From Bdellovibrio reynosensis (GTDB lineage: Bacteria; Bdellovibrionota; Bdellovibrionia; Bdellovibrionales; Bdellovibrionaceae): 64,000 nt of DNA. Position 1 is the first letter of the stretch. The number at the start of each line of letters is the position of its first letter. The notes beneath the pieces were generated by a model. It was given only the letters and a program-made list of their open reading frames with translations. It was not told the DNA's origin and ran no database searches. The translations under genes and the position numbers were made by a program. Shown here in pieces: positions 1,676-43,194 of the stretch. The stretch is taken from the NCBI RefSeq assembly GCF_022814725.1, contig NZ_CP093442.1, positions 1 through 64,000 on the forward strand, read 5' to 3'.

Positions 1676-3106
1676 GTGCGCTCGCTTACAAAAATCATCT
1701 TATTATTAACTATCAGTCTTACGGTGATGGGTATCAACACCGTAAGCACTGGATTCAAAGTCGACCATGGCACGACTAGAGCCATCTACGCCCACAACGT
1801 CTGTAAGAAGGTCGTTAATGCCCATGCGACCAGAGATTATTTTGTTCCCACTAAAACAGCGGCTGAGTGGACCGCGTTCAGGGGAGCAACTATCACAGGC
1901 GTTACTTTACAAAAATGCAGCTCCTGCTTAGATATTTTAAATAATAATGGATCCACCGGTGATGGCGTTTATTACGTTGATCCGACCGGCAGTTCTCCGT
2001 TCCCGGTTTATTGTGACATGACCACTGATGGTGGGGGATGGACAAGGGTTTTTAAACACAATATTGCTGGTGGTTATTTTGTGGATTCAGCGGATGCCGC
2101 CGTTAAAAACCCCACAGATCCGACCGCAAATCATCACTCTATTTTAAATCAGATCGATAACTTTAGAACTCCGACGAATCGTTATCATTTCCGTTTAACT
2201 TGGCCAGGCCAAACATTAAAAAATTTGTGGTGGCAAACATCGGATCCACGCGCGGATGTGGACGTTGCAGGATATACTACGGAATTCGTGCAAGGACATA
2301 CTAATGCCTGGGGTGGGTTAGAGCTTTCACAAGGAACCCACGGGCCTGCATCAACTTCTGCCCACATTGACGGTTCTGTAAACCACGGGAATTGGTACTA
2401 TGCGATTGGTTCATTCGCCGCGTGGGGAACAGCACCTGACGTAGGTCTTCCTGCCTCCGATGTACTAGGAAGTGGTAAAGGTGTGCCCGAAGTAAATCTA
2501 TGGATGCGTGAAACTGACACTCATACAGTTTATAATTCTTGTAAAGCGATCTTAAATGCCGGTGCTTCAAAAGGTGATGGCCTTTATACGATTGATCCTG
2601 ATGGTGCGGGGGCGGGCGCAGCTTTTGAAGCATATTGTGATATGACGACAAGTGGTGGTGGATGGACACTTGTAGCGTATTCAAACGGATCAACTACTGG
2701 TACAACTCCGAATGATTTCTTTGTAAATACTTATTCCCAAGCCACCATCGGTCGCCATTTATCGGGTACGGCCCAAGCTTCAATCAATCCAGAGTCTTTT
2801 TCTATAACGGTGAACACCACAGACGCTATGTTTATTTCACCATCCTATAATGGTGGCGCAGCTTACATCGATCTTGCCGGCGGTAACTGGAATTATAATA
2901 ACACCAAGTGTACCGGGGTCCTTCGTCACACCAGTCGAACCGCAGGTTGTGCTGGCCAAAATGCTAATGACGGTTATAATGGTGCGGATGCATTCAACAT
3001 CGCTGTGGAAGCGGGAATGGAAGGGATCGTTCCATCCTATAAGGCTACGGAAGTTTGCTACAGCGGTAAAGGTAACGCGTGTTCGTTCAAATTCTATTTA
3101 AGATAA
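1676..3106 (+). CDS. Secreted protein with two fibrinogen-C-like domains
   Basis: GTG start 3 nt after the fibre gene. An N-terminal hydrophobic stretch (residues about 5-22) suggests export. Two modules share the layout Cys-x-x-Ile-Leu-Asn, a GDG(V/L)Y turn, then YCDMTT and GGGWT: one around residues 80-130, the second around residues 285-340. This YCDM-GGGWT signature is that of fibrinogen-related domains, which bind sugars or proteins at surfaces in other systems. Paired Cys residues suggest disulphides. Linkage to the S74 fibre suggests that the two act together in attachment, which is inference. The last 9 nt overlap the convergent sensor gene. Confidence 0.7.
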   Translation: MRSLTKIILLLTISLTVMGINTVSTGFKVDHGTTRAIYAHNVCKKVVNAHATRDYFVPTKTAAEWTAFRGATITGVTLQKCSSCLDILNNNGSTGDGVYYVDPTGSSPFPVYCDMTTDGGGWTRVFKHNIAGGYFVDSADAAVKNPTDPTANHHSILNQIDNFRTPTNRYHFRLTWPGQTLKNLWWQTSDPRADVDVAGYTTEFVQGHTNAWGGLELSQGTHGPASTSAHIDGSVNHGNWYYAIGSFAAWGTAPDVGLPASDVLGSGKGVPEVNLWMRETDTHTVYNSCKAILNAGASKGDGLYTIDPDGAGAGAAFEAYCDMTTSGGGWTLVAYSNGSTTGTTPNDFFVNTYSQATIGRHLSGTAQASINPESFSITVNTTDAMFISPSYNGGAAYIDLAGGNWNYNNTKCTGVLRHTSRTAGCAGQNANDGYNGADAFNIAVEAGMEGIVPSYKATEVCYSGKGNACSFKFYLR

Positions 3107-4747
3107 AAAGTCTTTATTTTGCCGTTCGTTATGCTTAGCTAAATTAGCGTTTTCAATGGCAAGACCAATGTATTCAGTTAAATCTAAAGCGATGATAAGA
3201 TCTGATTTCTGATAAAGATGATCAGGCCTGTGGGATGCAAAGATCACCGAGCCAATACTGCTGCCATGAATCTTAATTGGCAGCACCATTAAAGACTCAA
3301 CCCCTAATTGTTTCAATTGAACTTTGTCTAATTTGATTGTCGACTCGTCCAAGTATTCCGGGGTGATTTTTGTTACAAGTTGGGGGGCTGACAATTGTTC
3401 TGGATCTGCAGTGATCGTTCTAAATAAGGCCGTCTTTTCTGGGAAGACGTGGGACTCGGCAACTCGGATTAAATTTCCTTCTTCAAAAATATCAATAGCA
3501 CAAAAATCCGCCATGAAGGGGGTGGCAAGGTCGGCAACTGTTTTTAACATTTTTTTATAATCAAGCGACGAACACAGCTGATTGGCAGAATCGCTTAAAA
3601 AAGTTAAGCGCTTAGCGCCGGCTTCTGCTTCGCGCGTGCGGGATTCTAAATCCGATGCCATATCATCAAACGTGTGCGCCAAAGTTTCTAATTCGCCAAA
3701 GCCACTTTTTAATCCAGTGCGTGCCGTAAGGTCGCCCGCTTTTAAGCGTTTGGCTGCTTTTTGAATTTTTTTAATTTGATAAAGAAACAAAAAACCTGCG
3801 ACCCAAGCAAAAAGAATTTCTATGAAGGTGACAAAGGCTTCTCGCGACATGCTTTTATTCAGCATCTCTTCAACTTGGGAATAAAACACAAAATTCGGAA
3901 CACCCACGGTCAAATATATATTGCCAGCTTCAGGGGCTGTGCGCAGTTTTCTAAAAACAAACATGCGGTCTAGGCTATCGATCTTAGAACTTTCAATCAC
4001 TGTCTCATCGCTGTTAGAACGGATGGCTTTAAGAATATTCTGATCCGCTATCACTTTACCGATGCGCAGATCTGAATCAGGAAAGCGAGCCAGGATGAAA
4101 CCTTTATGGTCTAAAATCATCATCGTCGCCTGCGTAGGTAAAACTGCTGTATTGGCTAATTGTCCCAGCCAAGATAAATCCAAGGCCACATAGATAACGT
4201 ATTTAACATTTTTATTTTCATCTAAAACTACATTGCTAAAATTCAAAGAGGGTTTTTTGGTGATACGGCCGATTTGAAATTCACCGATGGCAAAAGATTT
4301 TTTTTCAAGAGCTTTTGTGAAATACAAGCGATCAGCCAAGTTCGTTTTAGGGGGAACTTGCAAAGCGCTGCATAGGACATTTCCCTTTAAATCGATCACA
4401 CCTAAATTGCCATAAAGGGGATGTTGCTTTTGGATCTTTTTTAAAAACGGAGTGCATACGTTAGGTTTGCCGCTTTGAATTTCTGGAACTTCGACAAGGA
4501 CAGATAATAATTGCTGAACATTGGCGACAAGCCGTTCGTGATCATGGGCAGCAAGTTGGACCAAGCGAATCGCTTCTTTGTGCGCGTATTCTGAAGCTTC
4601 ATTACGGGTGATTCTTGCGGTATACCAAAATTCGCCAAGGGTGGGCAGAACTTCAAAGATCATCACCAGCAGAACGCTCAGTGAAAGACTTTTAAGCGCC
4701 AGGGATCTAAAATTTTTCCAGCGTTGGGACTTTTTGGTGTTTTCCAT
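3098..4747 (-). CDS. Cache-HAMP-GAF membrane sensor lacking an output domain (truncated histidine kinase?)
   Basis: 549 residues. Order of parts: TM helix (about residues 15-35), a periplasmic dCache-like ligand domain (about 40-280, with GNLGVIDLKGNVLC and MMILDHKGFILARFP), a second TM (about 300-325), a HAMP segment (KRLKAGDLTARTG), a short coiled coil, and a GAF domain (about 385-540). The protein ends with NERQNKDFLS and a stop. In GAF-linked histidine kinases the KD(E)FLS sequence is the first turn of the HisKA domain, just before SHELRTPL, so the gene looks cut at the kinase boundary. No kinase, GGDEF or receiver domain is present here or just downstream. It may act as a signal-sensing partner for another protein or be a decayed kinase. 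Its 3' end overlaps the fibrinogen-like gene by 9 nt. Confidence 0.75.
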   Translation of the reverse strand: MENTKKSQRWKNFRSLALKSLSLSVLLVMIFEVLPTLGEFWYTARITRNEASEYAHKEAIRLVQLAAHDHERLVANVQQLLSVLVEVPEIQSGKPNVCTPFLKKIQKQHPLYGNLGVIDLKGNVLCSALQVPPKTNLADRLYFTKALEKKSFAIGEFQIGRITKKPSLNFSNVVLDENKNVKYVIYVALDLSWLGQLANTAVLPTQATMMILDHKGFILARFPDSDLRIGKVIADQNILKAIRSNSDETVIESSKIDSLDRMFVFRKLRTAPEAGNIYLTVGVPNFVFYSQVEEMLNKSMSREAFVTFIEILFAWVAGFLFLYQIKKIQKAAKRLKAGDLTARTGLKSGFGELETLAHTFDDMASDLESRTREAEAGAKRLTFLSDSANQLCSSLDYKKMLKTVADLATPFMADFCAIDIFEEGNLIRVAESHVFPEKTALFRTITADPEQLSAPQLVTKITPEYLDESTIKLDKVQLKQLGVESLMVLPIKIHGSSIGSVIFASHRPDHLYQKSDLIIALDLTEYIGLAIENANLAKHNERQNKDFLS

Positions 4748-4995
4748 TCTTGCCAGAAGTTCCTCTGGCTTTAATTTTCAGGGACTCTAAGACGGCTGGC
4801 AATGGCAGAATCACGCCTTGTCGATAGACACCGGGCCTATGGTTTTCGTTTCGCTTTTATTCGTTCTTTAGGTTTTATGAATAGATGAAGAATATAGAAA
4901 ACTGTCAAAGTTAATCCCAAAGGAAAGTGAACTATTTTAGTTTTAAAAAAATTCTTCATCACCGATATACAAAATCCCTAGGCCCTTAAGGCCCA

Positions 4996-6651
4996 CTATC
5001 GCTGGAACCCGTTTATGAGATTTGCCATAAACACACAATCCCAACCCATCGAAGACTCGTAAGCTTTATCCTCAATTTCTCTTTCCCAACTCCACTGATG
5101 CTGGCGGGTGGGGGCGGCGGAACCAAAGGCAGGACAGTATTTATCTAGTAATTCAAAAACTCTTTTTTCTTTACCGAAGGCTAAAAATCTAAAAAATGGA
5201 TTTTCAGGTTCTCTGGCGCTTAGGACCTTCGCAGCAAGATCGATATTCACGTTTTTAGTTTTCTGATGAAGGTGGTTCAAAACTGCCACGGCGACCAGGT
5301 GTAAACGGAAGCCTCGTTCGTTAGTTAGGGACTGAATCAGAAGCCAAGATGGTTCATAGCCATAATCCGGAAAGTGATCCGTATTTACTCCTAACTGATT
5401 GCCAAGCCTTTTTAACCAATACCAATCATCGCCCATAAGCTGACAAGTGCCGTTGGTGTCTTTAAAGCAGCTACGGTGAAAAGTCAGTCGTGGGGTACCC
5501 GCCGCCGGAATATCTTTAGTGTTGGCTAAAAGGAAATTCACCCAACGATTATAAGAAGCAATATCCTTTGTTTTATGCAAATAGGCCATAGCCCCAGCAA
5601 ACATGTCGCCGGAAAAGTCATTGGTCTGTTCGTTTGATCCAATCAGATGGGGACTGCGCCACCACTGACCTTTTTGATCTAAAGAGTCTGCGACCATCTT
5701 ACAGCCTTCTTCTTCACCACTGAGGCATAATAGACCTGAAAACAGAGTCATATCGCCCGTCTCACAGTTTCCTTTACTTGGATAAGGAATTTGTTTGTGC
5801 TCACATAAAGGGGCGATGCTTTTCCAATGCTGAATGCGCTCGTTAGCGACGACATTGAAAGCGGGTGTGGCAGGCTCAAGCATGGCTAGGATGTTATTTA
5901 AACTTTCTGAAAATTTCTCTAGCGGCCATTTCATTTGTAAACACACGAAATTGGCACTTGAAACATTAATTGCGTTTGGAACCGAACAATCATCAAGAGA
6001 AAGGAAAGTGTAAGGTTCCAGTTCCTTTAATAAGTACATTCGCCCCATTTTTTCGACAAGATCACTGTCTTGGAAGATGGACTCGCCAATTTTTAAAAAG
6101 AAATTTTCGGCGGGAAGGGATGCAATTTTATCATTCAGTTTATTTTTGACCCAATCGCCTAAATTCAACGTTTGCCCAAGGGCTCCATTAACTTCGCAAT
6201 CTTTAATAGGTTCGCGATCCAGAACTTCAATAATAGATCTTTTTATAAGATCCGGTTTCATGTGAATACGAACATAAGCGTTACAGCGAATGCGGGGCTC
6301 AAAGGGAACCTTTTTTGGGATGACGTGGAACCAGGTGTGCAAAAACAATGTCGAGTCTTGAGGATTATGATTTATCAATCTTACATAACCTTCACCCCAT
6401 TTGATGTCAGGATGATTTTTTAAGGTCTTTAGTAGTTCCTGGGTTAAAAGATTTTCTAGCCAATCATTTCTAAGTGCCACCTTTACATTTTGTGGGTTCC
6501 AAGAAATATGCACTAAACCATCAAAGTTTAAGTAAGAATTAGCAGCAGAAAGGCGGTTGTATACTTTTTTAGAAAGCGGACTTAAATTTTCTGCCGAAGC
6601 CACAGACAAGAAAAGGAAAAAGAAAATAAAAATATATCTACGGAATTTCAT
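4996..6651 (-). CDS. Exported protein of unknown function
   Basis: Not recognised. I chose the ATG whose product begins MKFRRYIFIFFFLF, because a GAGG ribosome site lies about 7 nt upstream and a clear signal peptide follows (cleavage near SVASA-EN); an in-frame ATG 51 nt further upstream lacks both properties. The mature protein of about 530 residues is rich in Trp and Cys (CNAY, DCSVPN, CEHKQ, CETGD, CKMV, CFKD, CQLMGDD), which suggests a disulphide-bonded periplasmic or outer-surface protein. The second half has regular Trp/Tyr-rich helical segments that could form an alpha-toroid, but this is only an impression. It stands alone on the minus strand. Confidence 0.55.
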   Translation of the reverse strand: MKFRRYIFIFFFLFLSVASAENLSPLSKKVYNRLSAANSYLNFDGLVHISWNPQNVKVALRNDWLENLLTQELLKTLKNHPDIKWGEGYVRLINHNPQDSTLFLHTWFHVIPKKVPFEPRIRCNAYVRIHMKPDLIKRSIIEVLDREPIKDCEVNGALGQTLNLGDWVKNKLNDKIASLPAENFFLKIGESIFQDSDLVEKMGRMYLLKELEPYTFLSLDDCSVPNAINVSSANFVCLQMKWPLEKFSESLNNILAMLEPATPAFNVVANERIQHWKSIAPLCEHKQIPYPSKGNCETGDMTLFSGLLCLSGEEEGCKMVADSLDQKGQWWRSPHLIGSNEQTNDFSGDMFAGAMAYLHKTKDIASYNRWVNFLLANTKDIPAAGTPRLTFHRSCFKDTNGTCQLMGDDWYWLKRLGNQLGVNTDHFPDYGYEPSWLLIQSLTNERGFRLHLVAVAVLNHLHQKTKNVNIDLAAKVLSAREPENPFFRFLAFGKEKRVFELLDKYCPAFGSAAPTRQHQWSWEREIEDKAYESSMGWDCVFMANLINGFQR

Positions 6652-40452: not shown

Positions 40453-40480
40453 TTGCACTTTAAGCTCGGCACGCTATCTG
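40453..40480 (+). promoter_or_regulatory. Possible promoter of the peptide cassette
   Basis: TTGCAC (40453-40458), 16-nt spacer, TATCTG (40475-40480), 52 nt before the peptide ATG. A reasonable sigma-70-like match, not verified. Confidence 0.4.
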
Positions 40481-40532
40481 CAGTTCGTCCTTTCAACAAG
40501 GTCATTTTGACGAATATTAAAAGGAGATTAAA

Positions 40533-40679
40533 ATGAACAAAAATGAATTATTCCAAAACATCATTTCTGAGAAAAAAGGTGGTAATGCGGTGGGGGTGCA
40601 AAAGGAATTGAAGTCTGAAAATATTCCAGACGAAGTAAAAAATATTTTGCACGCACGCAAAGCAAAAAAACTTAATTAA
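40533..40679 (+). CDS. Small peptide, possible RiPP precursor
   Basis: 48 residues, beginning MNKNELFQNIISEKKGG and continuing NAVGVQKELKSENIPDEV, with a basic end. AAGGAGAT lies 7 nt before the ATG, an ideal ribosome site. The N-terminal acidic/hydrophobic half plus a GG at residues 16-17 resembles a double-glycine leader; the part after it has a single Pro (residue 32), one His and several Asn/Asp that a hydroxylase could modify. A strong hairpin follows, then a 2OG-Fe(II) oxygenase and an ABC exporter on the same strand. No C39 peptidase is encoded in the cassette, so processing would need another protease. Confidence 0.6.
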   Translation: MNKNELFQNIISEKKGGNAVGVQKELKSENIPDEVKNILHARKAKKLN

Positions 40680-40702
40680 AAAATTTTGTAAGTATTTAAG
40701 TA

Positions 40703-40727
40703 AAAGGGAGAATGACATTCTCCCTTT
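40703..40727 (+). terminator. Strong hairpin between peptide and oxygenase genes (attenuator-like)
   Basis: AAAGGGAGAA / TTCTCCCTTT, a perfect 10-bp stem with a 5-nt loop (the bases at the loop base can also pair). The T-run after it is weak. It probably reduces read-through so that the peptide is made in excess over the downstream proteins, as is common in peptide-bacteriocin operons. Confidence 0.6.
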
Positions 40728-40743
40728 CATATTTTGGTGGGAT

Positions 40744-41328
40744 ATGGATTCATCATTTTTATTAAATTTGGAAGTCAAAAAATATGACAATCCTTGGTCA
40801 TACTACGTAATTGATAACTTTCTTCCAAGTGAAAGTTTTAAAAAATTACAACAACAACTTTGTGCTGTTGATGCGGGATTTGAAAAACAAGATGACGATA
40901 TTTTTCAAATAAATTTCATGTTCCTTCCGGATCTCACATTGGCAAAATTTTTTATTGGTGAAGCCTTCCAAGAATTTTTGCAAAGAGTAACTCAGAAAAG
41001 TCTTGAAATTAGTGACACGGGTCTCGTGCAACTTCGTCGAATGACGCCTAACTCCCCAGCCATGCCTCCCCATATAGACGCGGCTGACGAACGCTCATTA
41101 GTATGCATTTATTATCTTTCACCAAATTGGCATCCGCAATGTGGCGGCGAACTGCTTCTTCATCCCGACAATTTAAGAATATCCCGCCAGGAAGCAGTGG
41201 CAATTGAGCCACTAGCGAACAGGATGGTATTATTTTTCACAGATAATACAAATTGGCATAGTGTTGTGAAAGTAAATAACTGGAACCGATACTCTGTTTT
41301 ATCCGAGTGGATCGTGCAGGAAGGCTGA
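40744..41328 (+). CDS. 2-oxoglutarate/Fe(II)-dependent oxygenase (prolyl-hydroxylase-like)
   Basis: 194 residues. The facial triad is seen as PHIDAADER (His-x-Asp) and, about 75 residues on, the distal His in NTNWHSVVKV; the Arg in NRYSVLSEWI would bind 2-oxoglutarate. CGGELLLHP and NRMVLFF between them are typical of the P4Hc-like double-stranded beta-helix. The family hydroxylates Pro, Asn or Asp side chains in proteins and peptides. No signal peptide, so it acts in the cytoplasm. The gene lies between a small peptide and an exporter, which suggests that the peptide is the substrate. Clearly AT-rich: one 60-nt line (40801-40860) has 15 G/C against 28 in a pepT line (39601-39660). Confidence 0.8.
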   Translation: MDSSFLLNLEVKKYDNPWSYYVIDNFLPSESFKKLQQQLCAVDAGFEKQDDDIFQINFMFLPDLTLAKFFIGEAFQEFLQRVTQKSLEISDTGLVQLRRMTPNSPAMPPHIDAADERSLVCIYYLSPNWHPQCGGELLLHPDNLRISRQEAVAIEPLANRMVLFFTDNTNWHSVVKVNNWNRYSVLSEWIVQEG

Positions 41329-41330
41329 AT

Positions 41331-42668
41331 ATGAAATCTTTAGTACTTAAATATGTTGATAGGCCGCTTGCCGCTAAAATATTAGTATATAGTTTTATTC
41401 AACAACTTGTGGCAGCAACAGGAACCTATGCACTAATTAAAGCGGGTTTGTCATTTGATGCCCCAGTTTTTTTAATAGCGTGGCTTGCAATCACTCTAGC
41501 TTGTCATGTGTTGACACCGTTCTTTGGTATTATCACGAAGCCGCTTGAGATAGAATTAACGTTCAAATCATATAAAAAATTTCTTGAAGAAAAACTACTT
41601 AGCAAAGCCTCTTCTTCTTCTCTTTGGTTGCAAAAAAATGAGCGCGAAAGATTTCTGGCCTCTGTTGGTGCTGAAACTGAATTATATCTAGGCGCCATAG
41701 TATATGTCTTATTAGACCTCTTTTCATTCGGACTATCGATTATCTTCAGCATCACCGTGTTGGGATTTTCGCTCGATATGATGTTTATCCCTGCTTTCGC
41801 CATGGCTGGTATTGTTAGCTTTTTTTGCTATAGCTACCTTCAGAAAAAAATTACACACGCCTTTGAGGTTGAGCAGGAAGCAAAGACCAGTTTCGCGAGT
41901 TACCTGTTATCTTCCTGGGATAACATTTTTTTTAAAAATGCGGGAGTTATTAGGCGCTACCAAGATCAATTTAGTCAACGTTTTGATGTGGCAAAATCAA
42001 GATCTGTCGAAGCAGCTCGTTGGTATGAGGTGATGGTATCTGTATTGAGTTTGGTTTCGAGCTTGCCTGTTATTACAGTTTTAATTTGGCTTGCCTTTAA
42101 GAACCAAAATAACAACGCTGTTCTTGTTGCGCTACTGGCCGTTGCTCCACGTCAGTTAAATATTCTGTCGACGTTTAGAAATATATTTCAAACAACAGCA
42201 TCATTTTTAAGCTTCGAAGCTAAATTCAGAAGACTTTCTCAAAATGCGACTTTAATTGAACAACCAATTACAGGAAGAATCCAACATACAGGCATCAGAG
42301 TAGAAGATAACTATCATCAAACTCTTGAGTCACTTGAGAAAACTATTATAGGCAGTCCACCTAAACGAATTGAGATTCGTGGTCCTAATGGCGTCGGAAA
42401 ATCAACGCTGCTATTGCATTTAAACCAAAAGTTAGATTCTTCATTTTACTTGCCTGCAAATCCGCAGTTTGACTTACCAGAAAACGCAGTTAGCTCCACG
42501 GGGGAGAATCTAGTAAGACATATTGAGTTTTTATCTACCCAAGATGACCGTTATATTTTGTTGGATGAGTGGGATGCAAATTTAGATCAGAACACGATCG
42601 ACAAAGTTCATGGACTTCTTAATGAGCTTTGTAAAACCAAAGTGATTGTGGAAGTTCGGCACCGTTAA
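41331..42668 (+). CDS. ABC exporter with compact ATPase domain
   Basis: 445 residues. Six predicted TM helices (residues about 14-38, 43-67, 120-145, 147-175, 235-260, 268-295), then an ATPase domain at the end. Walker A is GPNGVGKST, Walker B is YILLDEWDAN, the D-loop is NLD, and VEVRHR supplies the H-loop His. The signature position reads STGEN instead of LSGGQ. Only about 110 residues separate the start of the ATPase domain from the end of the protein, half the usual size, so the helical subdomain is largely missing. It starts 2 nt after the oxygenase stop, with AGGA upstream. Most likely it exports the modified peptide or a relative. Confidence 0.72.
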   Translation: MKSLVLKYVDRPLAAKILVYSFIQQLVAATGTYALIKAGLSFDAPVFLIAWLAITLACHVLTPFFGIITKPLEIELTFKSYKKFLEEKLLSKASSSSLWLQKNERERFLASVGAETELYLGAIVYVLLDLFSFGLSIIFSITVLGFSLDMMFIPAFAMAGIVSFFCYSYLQKKITHAFEVEQEAKTSFASYLLSSWDNIFFKNAGVIRRYQDQFSQRFDVAKSRSVEAARWYEVMVSVLSLVSSLPVITVLIWLAFKNQNNNAVLVALLAVAPRQLNILSTFRNIFQTTASFLSFEAKFRRLSQNATLIEQPITGRIQHTGIRVEDNYHQTLESLEKTIIGSPPKRIEIRGPNGVGKSTLLLHLNQKLDSSFYLPANPQFDLPENAVSSTGENLVRHIEFLSTQDDRYILLDEWDANLDQNTIDKVHGLLNELCKTKVIVEVRHR

Positions 42669-42701: not shown

Positions 42702-42815
42702 CTACGAAAAAATATAAACCGCTATGAAAGTTGCGATGATTGGAAGAATGAAAGTAAGGCCTAGGACTATCAGGGTTTTGGATTTTACTTCTGATTCGTT
42801 GTTTTCAGTCGTCAT
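42702..42815 (-). CDS. Small single-TM membrane protein
   Basis: 37 residues: MTTENNESEVKSK, then a 23-residue hydrophobic helix (TLIVLGLTFILP and on), ending YIFS. AAGGAAA stands 4 nt before the ATG. The size and layout recall accessory subunits of respiratory complexes such as NapE/TorE, but this is only a resemblance. Other frames here show nothing better. Confidence 0.5.
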   Translation of the reverse strand: MTTENNESEVKSKTLIVLGLTFILPIIATFIAVYIFS

Positions 42816-42967: not shown

Positions 42968-43022
42968 TTCGAGTCCTGCTACTCCATACTGTCGGGGCCG
43001 AATTTTTCCCCTATGCTTAAAT
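42968..43022 (+). repeat. Inverted partial copy of the tRNA-Gln 3' end and flank
   Basis: 42968-42987 repeats, in the opposite orientation, the T-arm and acceptor end of the tRNA-Gln at 43119-43194 (TTCGAGTCCTGCTAC then TCCAT for CCCAT). 43001-43022 is a perfect 22-bp inverted copy of 43097-43118, which flanks that tRNA. No 5' half of a tRNA is found, so this is a remnant or a rearrangement scar. Confidence 0.75.
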
Positions 43023-43118
43023 GCGAGTTTCACAGGCGAACCAATACACGAATGCAAAGCTAGCACTGACTAACAAGAGCCGAGGACTGTCTGAGTATTT
43101 AAGCATAGGGGAAAAATT

Positions 43119-43194
43119 TGGATGGGGTAGCAGGACTCGAACCTGCGAATGACAGAATCAAAATCTGTTGTCTTACCAACTTGACGATACCCCA
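43119..43194 (-). tRNA. tRNA-Gln (UUG)
   Basis: Minus strand: 7-bp acceptor TGGGGTA/TACCCCA; D-arm with GTTGGTAA; anticodon stem ACAGA/TCTGT around loop TTTTGAT, anticodon TTG; T-arm GCAGG-TTCGAGT-CCTGC; then discriminator T and an encoded CCA (43121-43119). All arms pair fully. An inverted copy of its 3' end lies 131 nt away. No other tRNA is adjacent. Confidence 0.95.

Follow-up and report, generated by a model that had tools for sequence, protein, structure and literature searches.

We found that three genes on the + strand of the window, which is the whole 64,000-nucleotide stretch analysed from the complete 3.58-Mb genome of Bdellovibrio reynosensis, likely form a RiPP operon, in which a 2OG-Fe(II) oxygenase would modify a 48-residue peptide and an ABC exporter with a miniature nucleotide-binding domain (mini-NBD) would secrete it. 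The original prediction of a RiPP cassette was well supported by the linkage of the three genes, by a conserved coding peptide, and by exporter relatives that lie in cassettes of a peptide and a RiPP-type enzyme. The tight same-strand unit that had been described was found with its open reading frames where they were predicted, the exporter ATG (41331) lying 2 nt past the oxygenase stop and a ribosome site, AAGGAG, preceding the peptide gene. The conserved unit, the co-occurrence of its genes, the motifs, the promoter-like sites and the hairpins were computed, and the features in the window are as follows.

40467..40482, + strand: sigma-54-type -24/-12 promoter-like site CGGCACGCTATCTGCA, 65 nt 5' of the peptide ATG.
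40521..40526, + strand: Shine-Dalgarno AAGGAG, seen in the sequence, with similar sites 5' of most homologous peptides.
40533..40679, + strand: 48-aa precursor peptide, the candidate substrate, with 8 homologues, all linked, and coding conservation.
40703..40727, + strand: hairpin between the peptide and oxygenase genes, present in 7/8 cassettes.
40744..41328, + strand: 2OG-Fe(II) oxygenase, 194 aa, with H110/D112/H172/R182, assigned from Pfam, NCBIfam, ligands and fold.
41331..42668, + strand: ABC exporter, 445 aa, with a miniature nucleotide-binding domain and no C39 peptidase domain.
42381..42665, + strand: mini-NBD, with Walker A, signature-like motif, Walker B and H-loop.
42381-42407, + strand: Walker A GPNGVGKST.
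42492-42506, + strand: signature-like SSTGE.
42555-42587, + strand: Walker B ILLDEWDANLD.
42651-42665, + strand: H-loop EVRHR.

To establish how the three genes are distributed, a profile of the peptide was searched against 359 genomes from its phylum. Only eight of these genomes gave strong matches (E below 1e-11), and in each of the eight the peptide adjoins the same exporter; no convincing unlinked homologue was found with this profile among the 359 genomes. The oxygenase beside the peptide is intact in seven of the eight and a remnant in the eighth (G004). When 60 relatives were searched with the oxygenase, six close homologues were found, all from the same genus and all with a peptide homologue just 5' and an exporter homologue just 3'. 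Across the genus, peptide and oxygenase occur together in 7/24 genomes, plus the one with the oxygenase remnant, and the exporter is linked in 8/8 (Fisher p = 2e-5 and 1e-6 for co-occurrence). Hence the check proposed originally, whether peptide and oxygenase go together, gave a positive answer, and a short precursor gene adjoins the enzyme and is conserved with it, as in RiPP clusters.

In G004 the reading frames of the peptide and the exporter are open and the oxygenase survives as a remnant; therefore, modification may not be essential. This genome would fit an export pathway for an unmodified peptide (a bacteriocin or signal), with the exporter as the essential partner and the oxygenase as a losable accessory, and so would an exporter relative found apart from a recognisable peptide (L057). 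We consider this explanation very unlikely, given that the oxygenase is intact with all of its ligands in 7/8 cassettes and that some modifying enzyme is present in nearly every sister cassette (one carrying the same exporter type) with a recognisable peptide.

The peptide of the proposed RiPP operon is a conserved coding sequence. Peptide homologues without coding conservation had been named as a finding that would count against the prediction; instead, pN/pS was 0.04 for the closest pair and <1 in every pair. M1, G21, L26, I31 and P32 are invariant among the 8 homologues, and the overall pattern is a variable charged stretch at about residues 13-20 followed by GVxxxL....IPxE...L, the C-terminal half (GVxxxL....IPxE) being the most conserved part. 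The GG reported at residues 16-17 is present (G16-G17), but it is private to this genome, the relatives having KGAS, RGAF, KGSN, NKSG, NGRF or NRSG at this place; therefore it does not mark a conserved leader site of the double-glycine type, and the description as a GG peptide with a conserved processing site did not hold. Since the GG is not conserved and the exporter has no C39 domain, a C39 leader site was ruled out. The homologue alignment was also inspected, as had been suggested, for a conserved N-terminal leader and a variable C-terminal core; this classical RiPP pattern was absent, the conservation being C-terminal. The leader-then-core order is typical of RiPPs and not universal, and some RiPPs carry a C-terminal follower.

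Peptides from sister cassettes with TP-methylases resemble the C-terminal half of this peptide, with an hhalign score of 20.8 compared with 15.1 for the best of 200 column shuffles, in a comparison of four sequences only. The likeness was found by profile-profile comparison alone, and hmmsearch with the peptide profile detected none of the TP-methylase peptides. Since the sister-cassette peptides, which have other enzymes and the same exporter type, resemble that part, the conserved C-terminal GVxxxL....IPxE...L may serve as a docking segment. The main candidate modification sites would be the variable charged stretch and the invariant Pro32. Pro32 is also kept in the TP-methylase cassettes L098 and L099, whose examined stretches contained no 2OG gene, and therefore it may be structural rather than a target.

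The oxygenase matches PF13640 and PF13661. HxD...H...R is kept, and all Fe and 2OG ligands are invariant in the 7 intact oxygenases. In its AlphaFold model (mean pLDDT 88.9), the closest folds were PolD, OGFOD1, the HIF prolyl hydroxylases (PHD2) and Pseudomonas P4H, and kinship with prolyl hydroxylases was also found by sequence. The Pfam matches and the OGFOD1/PHD-like fold agree with the prolyl-hydroxylase-like 2OG-Fe(II) oxygenase proposed originally. The enzyme is of a peptide-tailoring type with an intact active site, its nearest NCBIfam families being the RiPP oxygenases FlmC (24.9 bits, curated cut-off 240) and YhhC (23.2 bits, cut-off 150), both at scores far below family membership. 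Pro hydroxylation is an attractive reaction for this enzyme, given its descent from prolyl hydroxylases and the proline at residue 32 that never varies in the peptide.

The best structural neighbours OGFOD1, PHD2 and Pseudomonas P4H act on large proteins, OGFOD1 on ribosomal protein uS12 and the Pseudomonas enzyme on EF-Tu, which would suit an oxygenase that hydroxylates prolyl residues of a cellular protein, with the peptide regulating it or binding to it, and something else passing through the exporter. Such a role appears unlikely, since the patchy presence of the gene (7/24 genus genomes) is unlike that of a housekeeping modification, and since the oxygenase is in strict linkage with a short peptide and with an exporter whose type elsewhere accompanies peptide-modifying enzymes. 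Peptide tailoring is therefore the reading we prefer, with the 48-residue peptide as the putative substrate.

The exporter of the proposed RiPP operon belongs to the type I ABC exporters, and its nucleotide-binding domain is degenerate, matching Pfam ABC_tran only at E=0.005. Its class is clear from the profile, the fold and the conserved motifs, and it has the transmembrane domain, Walker A, signature, Walker B and H-loop of ABC type I exporters. PCAT1 and McjD were among the best solved structural neighbours of the exporter model. The lack of a C39 protease noted originally was confirmed: a C39 peptidase domain was sought in the model and was absent, the N-terminus beginning with transmembrane helices. 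Having neither C39 nor a conserved GG in its partner peptide, the protein is not a C39 double-glycine exporter (PCAT). Relative to Sav1866, 77 residues separating Walker A from the signature motif are absent from the exporter profile, and therefore the Walker A lysine and the signature serine are 32 residues apart. The signature is replaced by S-x-G-[EQ] and the stretch ahead of it is deleted. Twelve homologues all retain this S-x-G-[EQ] motif, along with DEWDANLD and the H-loop RH. With most of the region that usually forms the helical subdomain missing, such an exporter would test what the ABC motor requires. A second mini-NBD exporter is encoded in the same genome (2159075-2160412, - strand; L057 5070-6413) and groups with the exporter of the G019 cassette; no recognisable peptide or tailoring gene was found beside it.

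Relatives of the exporter inside the phylum and beyond belong to one family, of which a scan of genome contigs found at least five members, so that its distribution beyond the phylum is a lower bound. In many of these loci a short peptide gene comes first, then one or more tailoring enzymes, then the exporter; the enzymes include HExxH proteins (aKG-HExxH), TP-methylases, a ryptide-like radical SAM/SPASM protein and DUF6875. One sister HExxH protein scores above the cut-off for aKG-HExxH peptide beta-hydroxylases. The mini-NBD exporter relative directly follows the HExxH enzyme in L058 and L151, and L060 and L102 each combine a TP-methylase, a relative of the 2OG oxygenase and HExxH proteins in one locus. 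In L058 (locus 2883-6392) and L093-L095 the HExxH protein is accompanied by a further protein of about 360 aa, for which no Pfam or NCBIfam match was found in L058, and the peptides found in L058, L094 and L095 end in an MxMIAFD-like motif. On plasmids of Acinetobacter, Moraxella and Methylophaga, the mini-NBD exporter is labelled as an ATP-binding or hypothetical protein and lies next to either a putative peptide modification protein of the HExxH kind or DUF6875, which may be an uncharacterised peptide-tailoring enzyme. Plasmid peptides ending in CGWGGGWSW (L152 3324-3482) and PPRPPVTPWRW (L149 4765-4887) are followed by DUF6875 and the mini-NBD exporter. A gene of the tryptophan halogenase family (PF04820, 430.8 bits; L056 2250-3863) lies 5' of the G019 cassette at a distance of about 1 kb.

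The cassettes also share features outside the genes. A sigma-54-like -24/-12 site was found in 8/8 cassettes, 44-65 nt upstream of the peptide. With assigned consensus weights and the near-duplicate G022 left out, the summed score of seven cassettes was 135.5, compared with a shuffle mean of 99.1 (sd 3.8; 0/1000 shuffles). Eleven sister cassettes, scored with assigned consensus weights, gave 199.0 compared with 159.1 +/- 4.4 in shuffles. A score of 19 or more was seen in 2/87 control upstream regions, and rpoN is present in this genome. The hairpin occupies the same position in 7/8 cassettes with differing sequences, is missing in G011, and is also found in several sister cassettes; at 40703-40727 it is probably a partial terminator.

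We propose that the sigma-54 promoter would drive the peptide gene and that the hairpin would let part of the transcripts pass, and with partial read-through the peptide would therefore outnumber the enzyme and the exporter. The oxygenase would hydroxylate or otherwise oxidise the peptide in the cytoplasm, and the mini-NBD exporter, which has no C39 protease, would export it, probably uncleaved or later trimmed by a general protease. From the sigma-54-like promoters, a specific activator seems to be required for production, and this requirement may account for silence in culture.

The G+C content of the cassette is 37.9%, compared with a mean of 42.6% across the window (sd 1.7%, 2.2-kb segments) and 44.6% for pepT, making it the lowest-G+C stretch in the window, about 2.8 standard deviations under the mean. 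The unit is thus AT-rich as originally noted, but only moderately so. Several different chromosomal neighbourhoods host the cassettes among relatives, and the surroundings of pepT in relatives differ from those in the window, which is compatible with mobility and no proof of it. An empty site beside pepT was sought in relatives as proof of insertion and was not obtained, because the relatives carry pepT in other neighbourhoods. Directly downstream of the cassette, inverted repeats (42968-43141) copy part of the 3' end of tRNA-Gln in inverted orientation (20 nt, 95%), together with the sequence adjoining that end (25 nt, 96%), and are possibly the remnant of an integration event. A 37-aa membrane-like ORF (42702-42815, - strand) with a sub-threshold DUF3923 match lies just 3' of the exporter. 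A defence role was rejected, generic PADLOC matches being all that was found for it.

The recurring plan of promoter, peptide, enzyme and exporter, with the enzymes swapped, points to an under-recognised modular family of ribosomal-peptide pathways. On balance, we lean slightly towards a modular RiPP class set by its exporter, in which cassettes on chromosomes and plasmids would combine a sigma-54 promoter, a short peptide, a hairpin, one or a few interchangeable enzymes (2OG-Fe(II), HExxH, TP-methylase, rSAM or DUF6875) and a mini-NBD exporter without the usual alpha-helical subdomain; the Bdellovibrio-type genus would use a cupin 2OG-Fe(II) oxygenase as sole modifier. The lone 2OG oxygenase that had been singled out as unusual is indeed the only modifier here, but it is one version of this wider family. 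The exporter is a genome-mining hook for RiPP cassettes whose peptides lack common sequence. For the predator-rich Bdellovibrio order, the cassette offers a testable peptide pathway, and with one enzyme and one substrate it is suited to in-vitro work.

RiPP clusters with 2OG oxygenases (PMC13097080) and with HExxH enzymes (PMC12636437) are already known. In the part of the literature searched, the oxygenase as sole tailoring enzyme, the mini exporter as common denominator and the sigma-54-type control look new, and no work joining RiPP, RpoN, ABC transporter and precursor peptide was found there. Like YhhC and FlmC (NCBIfam) and CorC of corallotide, a peptide tailoring enzyme that acts after an ATP-grasp synthetase (PMC13097080), the protein belongs to the 2OG-Fe(II) oxygenases named or shown as peptide tailoring enzymes; unlike them, it is encoded by the only tailoring gene of its cassette. 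In NCBIfam, YhhC and FlmC are accompanied by two radical SAM entries, YhhB and FlmE/OhkG, and a literature search for FlmC, OhkG and YhhC found only unrelated uses of those names. The aKG-HExxH peptide beta-hydroxylases (TIGR04267; PflC, PosC) hydroxylate peptides with iron and 2-ketoglutarate and are encoded with a short peptide and transporter genes; the pfl cluster encodes additional enzymes as well as two transporters (PMC12636437). The present cassette likewise has a short peptide followed by an iron/2-ketoglutarate-type enzyme and a transporter, although the HExxH enzymes are a family separate from the cupin-type 2OG-Fe(II) oxygenase found here. Sister exporter loci recall borosins in having TP_methylase proteins with short peptides, two of them also with a 2OG oxygenase, and these methylases may be borosin-like; this cassette has no methylase and so lacks the TP-methylase (alpha-N-methyltransferase) of borosins. 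Finally, the exporter shares the six-helix fold of McjD and PCAT1, but it has no C39 domain and its nucleotide-binding domain is about 77 residues shorter.
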